Shown: positions 8,124 through 58,512 of the stretch, one piece after another
Position numbering within the stretch: position 1 is the first letter of the stretch
Layout of the letters: every line of letters starts with the position of its first letter
Assembly (NCBI GenBank): GCA_036262055.1
Contig: DATAJP010000002.1
Coordinates: 702,177 to 766,176, forward strand
DNA length: 64,000 nucleotides
DNA from: Ignavibacteria bacterium
GTDB taxonomy: Bacteria; Bacteroidota; Ignavibacteria; Tepidaquicellales; Tepidaquicellaceae
Reading direction: 5' to 3'
Made by a program: the position numbers and the translations under genes
Notes under the pieces: generated by a model
The model's database searches: none
The model's input: only the letters and a program-made list of their open reading frames with translations
What the model was told of the DNA's origin: nothing

Positions 8124-8153
8124 GAAGTCATTCCCGCGAAGGCGGGAATCCCC
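8124..8153. repeat. GCGGGAAT-family palindrome, solo copy
   Basis: The core TTCCCGCGAAGGCGGGAA, preceded by GAAGTCA and followed by TCCC, matches the inverted repeats that frame the two GIY-YIG genes. No nuclease gene is attached here. It lies between the PTS IIA gene and the stop of the nucleotidyltransferase gene. Confidence 0.88.
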
Positions 8154-39355: not shown

Positions 39356-39385
39356 CTGGGATTCCCGCCTGCGCGGGAATGACTT
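39356..39385. repeat. GCGGGAAT-family palindrome, solo copy in a gene leader
   Basis: TTCCCGCCTGCGCGGGAA with CTGGGA before and TGACTTC after. It ends 13 bases before the ATG of the GCS2 ligase gene, so a hairpin would form in that leader. No nuclease gene is attached. Confidence 0.88.
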
Positions 39386-43195: not shown

Positions 43196-43226
43196 GAAGT
43201 CATTCCCGCGAAAGCGGGAATCCCAG
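43196..43226. repeat. GCGGGAAT-family palindrome, left inverted copy of GIY-YIG element 1
   Basis: Core TTCCCGCGAAAGCGGGAA within a 31-base unit starting GAAGTCA and ending TCCCAG. On the minus strand bases 43200-43226 are the last eight codons and the stop of the GIY-YIG gene. Confidence 0.93.
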
Positions 43227-43538
43227 TTTAATTTCTAATAACTCATCAGTTCCACCAATTTCATAAAATAAATCTTTCCAGTTATTGTTTACTTTCTCAA
43301 TTAACTCATTTTTCCAACTTCGATTCCATTTTTTTAATTGTTTTTCTCGTTCAATTGCTAATTCTACTCTTTCAAATTGTTCATAATAAATTAATCTATC
43401 AGTATTATATTGATATGAAAATCCTTTTATAGTTTTTTGTTTATGTTCAATAATGCGGCGTAATAAATTGTTAGTGACACCAATATATAAAACTTCATTG
43501 GATTTATTTGCTAAAATATAAACGAAGAAGTTTTTCAT
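43200..43538 (-). CDS. GIY-YIG nuclease-like protein, repeat-framed copy 1
   Basis: A 112-residue single-domain GIY-YIG protein. Motifs are FVYILANKSNEVLYIGVTNNLLRR (the GIY and YIG strands, here VYI and YIG), then IEHKQK, and YYEQFERVELAIEREKQLKKWNR, with the acidic and basic residues of the fold. It has no DNA-binding extension. It is about 80% identical to the copy at 56601 (90 of 112 by hand count). The palindrome at 43196 encodes its C-terminus GFPLSRE, and the inverse palindrome at 43547 lies eight bases before its ATG. Such small proteins are common in this phylum and their role is unknown. Here they look like the coding part of a repeat-bounded element. Confidence 0.9.
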   Translation of the reverse strand: MKNFFVYILANKSNEVLYIGVTNNLLRRIIEHKQKTIKGFSYQYNTDRLIYYEQFERVELAIEREKQLKKWNRSWKNELIEKVNNNWKDLFYEIGGTDELLEIKLGFPLSRE

Positions 43539-43546
43539 TTTTTATA

Positions 43547-43573
43547 CTGGGATTCCCGCTTTCGCGGAATGAC
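43547..43573. repeat. GCGGGAAT-family palindrome, right inverted copy of GIY-YIG element 1
   Basis: CTGGGATTCCCGCTTTCGCG then GAATGAC, inverted relative to 43196. One G is lost in the right arm compared with element 2. It precedes the start codon of the nuclease gene. Confidence 0.92.
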
Positions 43574-45512: not shown

Positions 45513-45541
45513 TGGATTCTCGCTTCCGCGGTAATGACTTC
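45513..45541. repeat. Degenerate GCGGGAAT-family palindrome
   Basis: TTGGATTCTCGCTTCCGCGG then TAATGACTTC, a worn copy of the palindrome around the GIY-YIG genes. It lies between the ABC ATPase start and the AAA+ gene end, and the low-complexity ACTTTATAACTTTATAAAC repeat follows. Confidence 0.62.
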
Positions 45542-50075: not shown

Positions 50076-50140
50076 GTCATTCCTGCGAAAGCAGGAATCC
50101 ATCAACATTTTGTTGACCCTGAAACAAGTTCAGGGTGACA
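50076..50140. repeat. 65 bp composite double-hairpin repeat, copy 2
   Basis: Inverted copy of the unit at 709, with about four mismatches in 65 bases: CATTCCTGCGAAAGCAGGAA, spacer, then CCCTGAAACAAGTTCAGGG. On the minus strand it supplies the final codons MSP and the TGA of the GT9 gene at 50130. Confidence 0.92.
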
Positions 50141-56071: not shown

Positions 56072-56560
56072 TTATTTACATTCTAAAGAAATCAGGAGCT
56101 GATTTTTATCAACGTTCTTTTTTTCTTCGATGAATATTTTTTTAATTCTGCAATCGAAAGGTGCTTTTATTTCATTTTCCATTTTCATCGCTTCAAGCAC
56201 AAGCAAAACATCACCTTGTTTCAGCTCATCATTCTCTTTAACGTTAAGTTTAACAATTGCACCGGGCATCGGAGATTTAATATCATTATTGATTTTCCGG
56301 TGATTTCTGCCGCCCGTGAGCCGCTCTTTTATTAAGTCCGTCTCGCTTTTGCAAGTAATATTATATACTTCGTTTTTAATACGCAATCTCAAATTATCAC
56401 CCTCTTGTTCAATATTCACAATGTAATTCTTGTTGTTAATTTTCACCGAAGCAAAATTTTCCGAAAGCTTTTCATACTCAAACGGAAAAGACTTACCATC
56501 GATGTTGATTGAATCGGTGTCGAGGTTTACTTTTTTATTGTTTATTAAATATTTGGTCAT
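56072..56560 (-). CDS. Biotin carboxyl carrier protein
   Basis: A 162-residue carrier whose biotinyl domain (about 90-162) contains SPMPGAIVKLNVKENDELKQGDVLLVLEAMKMENEIKAPFDCRI; Lys126 in EAMKMEN takes the biotin. The N-terminal half (NINNKKVNLDTDS-like beta strands) resembles the tail of acyl-CoA carboxylase alpha subunits. It is the carrier for the biotin carboxylase gene at 57004-58512, which is upstream on the same strand. The pair is split by GIY-YIG element 2 (56597-56981). No carboxyltransferase gene lies nearby, so the acyl-CoA it serves (acetyl, propionyl or other) is not shown. Confidence 0.92.
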   Translation of the reverse strand: MTKYLINNKKVNLDTDSINIDGKSFPFEYEKLSENFASVKINNKNYIVNIEQEGDNLRLRIKNEVYNITCKSETDLIKERLTGGRNHRKINNDIKSPMPGAIVKLNVKENDELKQGDVLLVLEAMKMENEIKAPFDCRIKKIFIEEKKNVDKNQLLISLECK

Positions 56561-56596: not shown

Positions 56597-56627
56597 GAAG
56601 TCATTCCCGCGAAAGCGGGAATCCCAG
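56597..56627. repeat. GCGGGAAT-family palindrome, left inverted copy of GIY-YIG element 2
   Basis: 31 bases with core TTCCCGCGAAAGCGGGAA. It is a perfect inverted match of 56951-56981. On the minus strand bases 56601-56627 code for the last eight residues and the stop of the GIY-YIG gene. Confidence 0.95.
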
Positions 56628-56939
56628 CCTCTTTTGTAATAGCTCATCATTTCCACCAATTTCATAAAATAAATCTTTCCATTCTGAATTAATCTTATTA
56701 CCGTGTTCATTTTTCCAGACTCTATTCCATTTCTTCAATGTCTTTTCTCGTTCAATAACAAAATCGCTTCTTTCAAACTGTTCGTAGTAAATCAGTTTAT
56801 CCGTATTGTATTTATACGAAAACCCTTTTATAGCTTTTTGTTTATGTTCAATAACCCTTCGTAATAAATTATTAGTAACTCCAATATATAAAACTTCATT
56901 CGATTTATTTGTTAAGATATAAACAAAGAAGTCTTTCAT
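56601..56939 (-). CDS. GIY-YIG nuclease-like protein, repeat-framed copy 2
   Basis: A 112-residue GIY-YIG protein, homologue of 43200-43538. Visible residues are Val6-Tyr7-Ile8 and Tyr18-Ile19-Gly20, the Arg27/Arg28 and His32 region (NLLRRVIEHK), and EREKTLKKWNRVWKN at 63-77. The last eight residues (LGFPLSRE) are written by the palindrome. The start ATG lies 11 bases inside the other palindrome and no Shine-Dalgarno is seen, so expression may depend on readthrough from the biotin carboxylase transcript. It interrupts the carboxylase/carrier operon. Nuclease activity is assumed from the family, not shown. Confidence 0.9.
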   Translation of the reverse strand: MKDFFVYILTNKSNEVLYIGVTNNLLRRVIEHKQKAIKGFSYKYNTDKLIYYEQFERSDFVIEREKTLKKWNRVWKNEHGNKINSEWKDLFYEIGGNDELLQKRLGFPLSRE

Positions 56940-56950
56940 TATTTTTGGTA

Positions 56951-56981
56951 CTGGGATTCCCGCTTTCGCGGGAATGACTTC
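56951..56981. repeat. GCGGGAAT-family palindrome, right inverted copy of GIY-YIG element 2
   Basis: 31 bases, CTGGGATTCCCGCTTTCGCG then GGAATGACTTC, the exact inverse of 56597-56627. Together they bound a 385-base element. Confidence 0.95.
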
Positions 56982-57003: not shown

Positions 57004-58512
57004 TTATCTATAATACTTCAGATTCTGTTCTTTCCATTTTGATGTTTGTTTCAGAACAGAATTATTATTCGCAACATCATTTTTACTTTCTCTTTGCATT
57101 AACACCGCAACAAAAGCTGCTGCTTCCGCGTCTTCGTTATCAAATTTATCTTTTGTACTATTCTTATATCTTTCTAAAAAAGTTTTTTCTATGAACTGTG
57201 TGTCATAACCCCCGTTTATGAACTCAGGACATTCAAGCAGGCTGTATAAAAACGAAATATTGGTTTTAATCCCGTCCAGCAAATAGCTTTCAAGACCGCG
57301 TTTCATTTTTTCAATTGCTTGTTCTCGAGTATCTGCATACGATACAAGCTTTGCAATCATTGAGTCATAATAAACCGATACTTCATCACCCTGCTCAATT
57401 CCTGTGTCTTCACGCAGACCATTGCCAAGCAATCTGCTCAGGTAAGTTATTTTTCCTGTCGAAGGAATAAAATTATTGTCAGGGTCTTCGGCGCTTATCC
57501 TGCATTCAATTGAATGTCCTTTGAACTTTATGTCTTCTTGTTTGAATGAAAGCTTTTCGCCGTAAGCTACTTTTAACTGCTCTTTCACCAAGTCAATGCC
57601 GGTTCGCATTTCAGTAATCGGATGCTCAACCTGCAGACGGGTATTCATTTCGAGGAAATAAAAATTTTTGTTTTTATCTACGATGAACTCAATTGTTCCT
57701 GCGTTTGAATAATTCGCTTCTTTCGCAAGCTGCACTGCGCAATCACCCATTTTTTTTCGCAGCTCATCATCGATGATTGTCGAGGGAGTTTCTTCAATTA
57801 CTTTTTGCAAGCGTCTTTGCATCGAGCATTCGCGCTCGCCGAGATGAATAACGTTACCGTGTTCATCTGCAAGAATCTGAAATTCTACATGTCTTGGTGC
57901 AAGAATATATTTTTCGATAAACACACTGTCATCACCGAAAGACGAACGTGCTTCGTTCTGCGCCATGCGGAACATACTTTCAAGTTCGTCTTCACTCTGA
58001 ACAATTCTCATTCCTTTTCCGCCGCCGCCTGCAGATGCTTTTATCAGAACAGGGTAACCTATTTTTTTAGCAATATCATTTGCTTCATTAAAATCTTTCA
58101 GTGGGGTTACAGTTCCCGGAACGATCGGTACTTTTGCATCAACCGCAATTTTCTTTGCGTTAGTTTTGCTTCCGAGAAAATCAATTGCTTTTGAGGAAGG
58201 ACCTATGAATTTTATTCCCGATTTCTCACACATCTCTGCAAAATAACTTCGTTCGGATAAAAACCCATACCCGGGATGAATTGCTTCCGCCCCGGATTTT
58301 TTTGCAACGTCAATTATTTTGTCAGCAAGCAAATAACTTTTTGAGGCAGGTGATTCGCCTATATGAAATGCTTCATCAGCAAGACGGACATTAAGTGAAT
58401 TTTTATCGAAATCAGAATAAACCGCAACAGATTTTATACCCATTTCGCGTGCTGTATTTATCACGCGGACTGCAATTTCACCACGGTTTGCTATTAAGAT
58501 TTTTTTAAACAA
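57004..58512 (-). CDS. accC: Biotin carboxylase subunit of an acyl-CoA carboxylase
   Basis: It carboxylates the biotin of the carrier protein with bicarbonate and ATP. The 502 residues have FKKILIANRGEIAVRVINTAREMGIKSVAVYSDFDK, the ATP-grasp glycine loop KASAGGGGKGMRIV, HVEFQILADEHGNVIHLGERECSMQRRLQKVIEETPS, and the metal and biotin site FYFLEMNTRLQVEHPITEMRTGIDLV. The C-terminal part is longer than AccC of fatty-acid synthesis, in keeping with propionyl- or methylcrotonyl-CoA carboxylases. The start is TTG at 58512. A CTGAATTTTCAG word lies five bases before it. The carrier gene follows after the GIY-YIG element. Confidence 0.95.
   Translation of the reverse strand: MFKKILIANRGEIAVRVINTAREMGIKSVAVYSDFDKNSLNVRLADEAFHIGESPASKSYLLADKIIDVAKKSGAEAIHPGYGFLSERSYFAEMCEKSGIKFIGPSSKAIDFLGSKTNAKKIAVDAKVPIVPGTVTPLKDFNEANDIAKKIGYPVLIKASAGGGGKGMRIVQSEDELESMFRMAQNEARSSFGDDSVFIEKYILAPRHVEFQILADEHGNVIHLGERECSMQRRLQKVIEETPSTIIDDELRKKMGDCAVQLAKEANYSNAGTIEFIVDKNKNFYFLEMNTRLQVEHPITEMRTGIDLVKEQLKVAYGEKLSFKQEDIKFKGHSIECRISAEDPDNNFIPSTGKITYLSRLLGNGLREDTGIEQGDEVSVYYDSMIAKLVSYADTREQAIEKMKRGLESYLLDGIKTNISFLYSLLECPEFINGGYDTQFIEKTFLERYKNSTKDKFDNEDAEAAAFVAVLMQRESKNDVANNNSVLKQTSKWKEQNLKYYR

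Follow-up and report, generated by a model that had tools for sequence, protein, structure and literature searches.

Two small genes for GIY-YIG nucleases in the DNA analysed here are each enclosed by a pair of inverted palindromes, and the same arrangement recurs in bacteria of many phyla. We read such a unit as an element composed of a nuclease and its cognate palindromes, in which the enzyme (of what we call group A) would cut REP hairpins and spread them in a RAYT/REPIN-like manner, and we give this reading a probability of about 0.58. The association between nuclease and REPs is strong, and we met no earlier account of it: in the library searched, no paper was found that joins GIY-YIG nucleases with REPs, and RepRanger (2025) mentions neither nucleases nor transposases. 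The function that we infer for the nuclease is a good and testable candidate.

The window, by which we mean the whole stretch of 64,000 nucleotides that was analysed, contains two units. Unit A (43199-43573) consists of a single minus-strand gene bounded by two inverted palindromes, the left of which starts at 43199 and reads GTC-ATTCCCGC-GAAA-GCGGGAAT-CCCAG. Unit B (56600-56978) is its sister. Their features are the following:

43196-43226, plus strand: left CGTC-type REP of unit A, GAA-GTC-ATTCCCGCGAAAGCGGGAAT-CCCAG, GTC outward
43200-43538, minus strand: GIY-YIG nuclease gene of unit A, 112 aa (Pfam PF01541, E=5.6e-17)
43547-43573, minus strand: right CGTC-type REP of unit A, inverse of the left, one stem G lost
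56597-56627, plus strand: left REP of unit B, intact
56601-56939, minus strand: GIY-YIG nuclease gene of unit B, 112 aa
56951-56981, minus strand: right REP of unit B, inverted and intact, its GAC-TTC end mirroring GAA-GTC

The initial annotation had already paired these units, counting about 90 of 112 identical residues by hand, noting the same inverted palindromes in both and finding the right palindrome of the unit at 43196-43573 short by one base. All three observations hold, with 90/112 residues identical, both palindromes of unit B intact and one G gone from unit A. It also spoke of the same gene order; a gene is indeed present in both, but with one gene per unit the claim adds nothing. 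At the DNA level A and B agree in 82% of 387 aligned columns, 12 of which have gaps. On either side their homology ends precisely with the outer GTC...GAC; the pair is therefore no segmental duplication. The alignment of the flanks thus bears out what had been proposed from the palindromes, as only AGAA (left) is common beyond them. Estimates of dS range from 0.78 (NG86; 0.778) to 1.6 (YN00), and dN/dS lies at about 0.1-0.2 (approximately 0.17 by NG86, 0.133/0.778). By these values A and B split long ago and are kept under purifying selection on protein function. The stop codon and last seven residues of the unit A protein (GFPLSRE) are the translated left palindrome; this tail is disordered in the structure model and missing from the other family members in the genome, which stop before the palindrome.

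The palindromes of both units match, by sequence, the CGTC-tagged REP superfamily (Di Nocera 2013), characterized by stems of 8-9 bp, loops of 4-5 nucleotides and a CCA tail (PMC3733652). Such REPs have been recorded in Chlorobi, Bacteroidetes and Proteobacteria, and the superfamily takes in the neisserial dRS3 as well as the rickettsial RPE-4 and RPE-6 elements (PMC3733652). In the genome under study the repeats likewise carry a GTC tag (CGTC/TGTC) at one end, a stem of 8-9 bp, a loop of 4-5 nucleotides and a CCA tail, and occur in many dispersed, mainly intergenic copies (55/67 outside ORFs). Allowing up to three mismatches, the 24-mer palindrome has eight copies in the window (0.00 expected); the 18-base core, with up to two mismatches, has 141 copies in the 2.87-Mb genome versus 0 for the reversed control, and a looser tagged pattern gives 169 copies, again with a control of 0. 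Ahead of perfect hairpins (8-bp stem, 4-5-nt loop) in 800 kb of one contig, GTC is the top trinucleotide (61/518). Solo REPs share the form GAA-GTC-hairpin-CCCAGTAT, and some REPs are paired as doublets with the GTC ends outward and a constant 17-nt gap. Besides units A and B, the window contains:

710-773 (C2:702886-702949), no strand assigned: gene-less doublet (REPIN-like) of two inverted tagged palindromes, GTC outward, 17-nt gap
8127-8150, plus strand: solo REP of the family of units A and B
39360-39383, minus strand: solo REP of the same family
45515-45538, minus strand: diverged solo REP, 3 mismatches
50076-50139 (C2:752252-752315), no strand assigned: gene-less doublet (REPIN-like) of the type at 710-773, 17-nt gap

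Folded as DNA, a solo REP gives a hairpin with -9 kcal/mol and a z of -6. The fold of a doublet is a multi-way junction (z -5.2), which the doublet's paired GTCA/TGAC tags close. No known RNA family was found in the window with Rfam.

A wider search for such units, as the initial annotation had proposed, uncovered six GIY-YIG homologues in the genome, of which five, forming group A, carry a palindrome at each end, with several different stems. Outside the window these stems are GTCATTCCAGCGAAAGCTGGAATC (L003), GTCGTCCCTGCGAAAGCAGGGATCC (L004) and GTGTCATTCTGAGCGAAGCGAAGAATC (L005). The sixth homologue belongs to group B, is 37% identical and lies without palindromes. This 80-aa gene (L006:1471-1713; G000:C3:967144-967356) sits among clustered tRNAs and has a tRNA-like fragment (GGTGACCTTCCCGCCTTG...GGGATGCTCTACC) on either side, which gives the impression of an insertion into a tRNA-Gly-like gene or next to one, and tandem duplicates of group B genes occur elsewhere (L097:339-921 in G026:C14; L117 in G009:C12). 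When the homologues in 40 relatives were split by score into the two groups, outward GTC-tagged hairpins stood on both sides of 16/51 group A genes, 0/38 group B genes and none of the shuffled group A flanks. Across phyla, 95 group A loci, drawn from many phyla and from plasmid records with a narrow alignment as query (so that the sample leans to near homologues), have a hairpin on the left in 62 cases, on the right in 65, on both sides in 51 and on either in 76; for shuffled flanks the figure is 0.036 per side, with none on both. Of these 95 loci about one-fifth lack the strict tagged hairpin on both sides, as do roughly half of the 51 from nearer relatives.

These counts, in the genome and across phyla, extend the earlier argument that two whole units speak against a chance pairing of gene and repeat. 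REPs might nevertheless serve as terminators or spacers that pile up beside short, weakly constrained genes, and their mostly intergenic position would suit such a role. We find this hardly credible, as the pattern occurs in just 2 of 721 ordinary ORFs of the contig (one being the unit at 56600) and in none of the 38 same-size GIY-YIG paralogues, and as it leaves aside the hairpin orientation, the left-right match and the cross-phylum recurrence.

Matches on plasmids come from Azospirillum lipoferum, Novosphingobium aromaticivorans, Sphingobium, Sinorhizobium and Neisseria, and these organisms overlap those listed with CGTC repeats (PMC3733652). On a Planktothrix agardhii plasmid (L136) a group A gene has a type IIL restriction enzyme (MmeI) on one side and the DISARM gene drmA on the other. 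A phage-borne element and a defence gene were considered and dismissed, since the phage search gave three weak matches only and the PADLOC match was marginal.

Palindrome type follows protein type. The cross-phylum palindromes have stems of 8 or 9 bp and fall into three loop classes, namely 4-nt loops (GAAA, GAAG, GCAG), 5-nt loops (CTTGA, CTTGT) and 9-nt loops (e.g., GTGCTCTTA). On the protein tree, which is built from few columns and in which near-copies help the clustering, loop class changes 19 times compared with 33.7 times when shuffled, and 0/200 shuffles went as low. In the relatives, left and right loop classes always agree where both flanks could be called. The 5-nt palindrome CTGAACTTGTTTCAG is found genome-wide in 6/6 relatives with a unit flanked by 5-nt-loop palindromes versus 10/34 others. 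In Bradyrhizobium the type of the right palindrome and a C-terminal protein motif co-segregate in 21/21 alleles, with hybrid alleles (L286, L295, L330) marking recombination within the unit. Shared descent partly accounts for both the clustering and the co-segregation.

The number of REPs is also linked to the nuclease. Among 147 genomes of the phylum, the median count of tetra-loop REPs is 8 with group A (n=65) versus 1 without (n=82; P=2.7e-6), at least ten such REPs occur in 30/65 versus 7/82 genomes, and REP count correlates with group A copy number (rho 0.47). Several group A genomes have zero tetra-loop REPs. A within-family permutation gives P=0.033, and in the nearest 40 genomes the counts differ modestly by gene presence (P=0.012), the phylum-wide set being stronger.

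The enzyme itself retains the complete GIY-YIG catalytic set of Tyr/Tyr/Arg/His/Glu/Asn (Y7, Y18, R28, H32, E65, N84), and these residues are invariant in the family together with G20. Its structure model (pLDDT 90.5) matches UPF0213 and then the branched-DNA nuclease Slx1 and UvrC in Foldseek. Pfam finds only GIY-YIG and T5orf172 domains and no HUH (Y1) transposase domain in the nuclease, and no NCBIfam family scores above its cut-off. With repair nucleases as its closest folds and purifying selection acting on it, the protein could instead be a guardian that trims or resolves REP cruciforms in replication or repair, in the manner of UvrC, Slx1 or Cho, and adjoins REPs for the sake of regulation; Caulobacter COG2827 genes have indeed been proposed as repair enzymes, one of them with an SOS box (PMC1839093). 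We consider this unlikely: genomes with the gene have more REPs rather than fewer, and a house-keeping gene would not be expected to turn up at different sites of the same genome, each time within a matched pair of palindromes.

As the host gene pairs are adjacent and nuclease-free in relatives, units A and B look like insertions. At the unit A site the convergent host genes almost touch in two relatives (G003 and G017), and a third (G006) has a solo REP only. At the orthologous site of another (L353 in G018, about 470-530) a REP is seemingly split by a further small palindrome inserted within the stem-loop. Unit B lies between the genes for a biotin carrier protein (56072-56560) and biotin carboxylase (57004-58512), which are adjacent in relatives, mostly with a gap of about 20 bp and in none with the nuclease. 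Elsewhere, sufB and sufC enclose the unit of A. lipoferum, a site that is empty in four related species, and the Sphingobium fnrL site is filled in seven records, holds a single GTC...GAC hairpin in two and is without a hairpin in two more. As in an insertion sequence, terminal inverted repeats bound the mobile unit, homology ends at the palindromes and empty sites exist; no known transposase domain was recognised in the unit. No target-site duplication is visible at the two window units, for which no relative is close enough to give base-exact junctions, and in Azospirillum, Sphingobium and Bradyrhizobium the intergenic DNA is too diverged for clear junctions or target duplications.

One Bradyrhizobium site, located in 117 of 118 genomes, offers the broadest range of states. 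Its 66 readable alleles comprise 27 with the gene, 10 with a GAAG-type doublet alone, 12 with a CTTGT doublet alone, 3 with a single symmetric CTTGA hairpin, 1 gene-less GAAG/CTTGA hybrid, 9 with another repeat and 4 with nothing recognised. That other, unrelated repeat (CCTCTCCCCGC...GTGAGGGG; alleles L278, L285, L287, L291, L303, L310, L319, L321 and L341) never occurs together with the nuclease gene. At several loci (L149, L150, L167 and L200 in Bradyrhizobium, L130 in Azospirillum) a doublet instead of a single palindrome stands on either side of the nuclease gene. Being direct copies, these doublets could recombine and drop the gene, and some gene-less states could thus have arisen with no need for the nuclease.

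The coexistence of filled and gene-less doublet alleles at this site would also fit a homing nuclease that cuts gene-less alleles and is copied into them from a filled allele by double-strand-break repair. GIY-YIG is a homing-nuclease fold, and the single-hairpin GTC...GAC alleles of Bradyrhizobium and Sphingobium resemble uninterrupted targets (or remnants). Homing genes, however, interrupt their own recognition site, whereas both palindromes are intact here; the units occupy many unrelated sites, and the protein is barely more than a catalytic domain, scoring under the cut-off of the intron-endonuclease family TIGR01453. All this renders homing quite improbable.

Conversely, the nuclease gene may be a passenger carried between two CGTC REPs or doublets that another enzyme moves, be it a Y1/RAYT or some other transposase. 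The unit lacks a recognised transposase, Y1 transposases exist in the genome and REP hairpins are known substrates of RAYTs (PMC8266576). The Y1 genes, however, sit between palindromes of their own that are unrelated to the REPs of units A and B, and in those species with CGTC repeats that were examined, neither a RAYT nor any other transposase gene is reported to have such repeats on its flanks (PMC3733652). Random cargo, moreover, would not be one gene family in many phyla with a loop type that tracks its tree, and we hold this explanation to be unlikely as well. Three of the four Y1 transposases (L037, L039, L040) are bounded by inverted palindromes, as described for TIR-associated transposases (e.g., GTTGTTGGTG-TTTT-CACCAACAAC in L039 and GAGACGCAA-TATT-TTGCGTCTC in L040).

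We therefore return to the nuclease as the agent acting on its own palindromes. In this proposal, the group A endonuclease would recognise the hairpins of CGTC-type REPs, whose defining features are GTC as tag at the 5' end, a stem of 8-9 bp, a loop of 4, 5 or 9 nt and CCA/CT as tail at the 3' end, and would cut at or near the tag, probably on extruded or single-stranded hairpins. The simplest mechanism would be a structure- and tag-specific nicking of extruded REPs, after which repair or copying could spread the palindromes, both singly and in doublets with GTC outward, while now and then the whole palindrome-bounded gene would move. If REPs are recognised, cut and spread in this way, the system would be RAYT/REPIN-like, but its enzyme would be a nuclease of the UvrC/Slx1 type and not an HUH tyrosine transposase. 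The recurrence of the pairing in many phyla suggests that the nuclease is the missing partner of the CGTC-type REPs. More tentatively, and at somewhat less than even odds, GIY-YIG nucleases may be the dedicated mobilisers of this superfamily across bacteria, acting on extruded hairpins in a UvrC/Slx1-type, HUH-independent manner.

CGTC-type REPs are widespread, and their 2013 description closes by asking which enzyme moves them (PMC3733652). With one candidate whose palindrome and protein types are matched in many phyla, the question can be tested with one protein and one hairpin. Should the proposal be true, it would give a role to the big and vaguely annotated 'GIY-YIG nuclease family protein' (COG2827), hitherto guessed to comprise repair enzymes, and would imply that REPIN-like systems also arose with an unrelated enzyme. 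In Caulobacter, three small COG2827 genes were noted without an assigned role (PMC1839093).

Of the known systems, four invite comparison. Slx1, the UvrC N-domain and UPF0213 (YhbQ-like) proteins share the fold; they are not known to be repeat-bounded or mobile. Slx1 has an additional RING domain and a partner, Slx4, and as it cuts branched DNA it is a plausible model for an activity on REP cruciforms. GIY-YIG homing endonucleases of the I-TevI type have the catalytic domain and residues in common with the enzymes described here, which differ in being free-standing intergenic genes with no intron or intein, no DNA-binding tail and recognition-like palindromes that are intact on both sides. The CGTC-tagged REPs (PMC3733652) agree in their GTC tag, 8-9-bp stem, 4-5-nt loop, CCA tail, dispersed intergenic copies and doublets; they were described as lacking a dedicated transposase, whereas the present data link them with a nuclease gene, and a 9-nt loop class is added. 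A parallel in architecture is RAYT/REPIN (PMC2817692, PMC3116915, PMC8266576), where an enzyme gene likewise lies between inverted REPs that also occur genome-wide as solo copies and inverted doublets, with several cognate enzyme-REP pairs per genome and co-variation of enzyme and REP. RAYTs, on the other hand, are described as single-copy (PMC3116915), whereas several related nuclease copies per genome are common here. The enzyme is a GIY-YIG nuclease and not an HUH/Y1 transposase, and the palindromes bear a GTC tag and CCA tail in place of GTAG; with both enzyme and tag different, the nuclease is not a RAYT.
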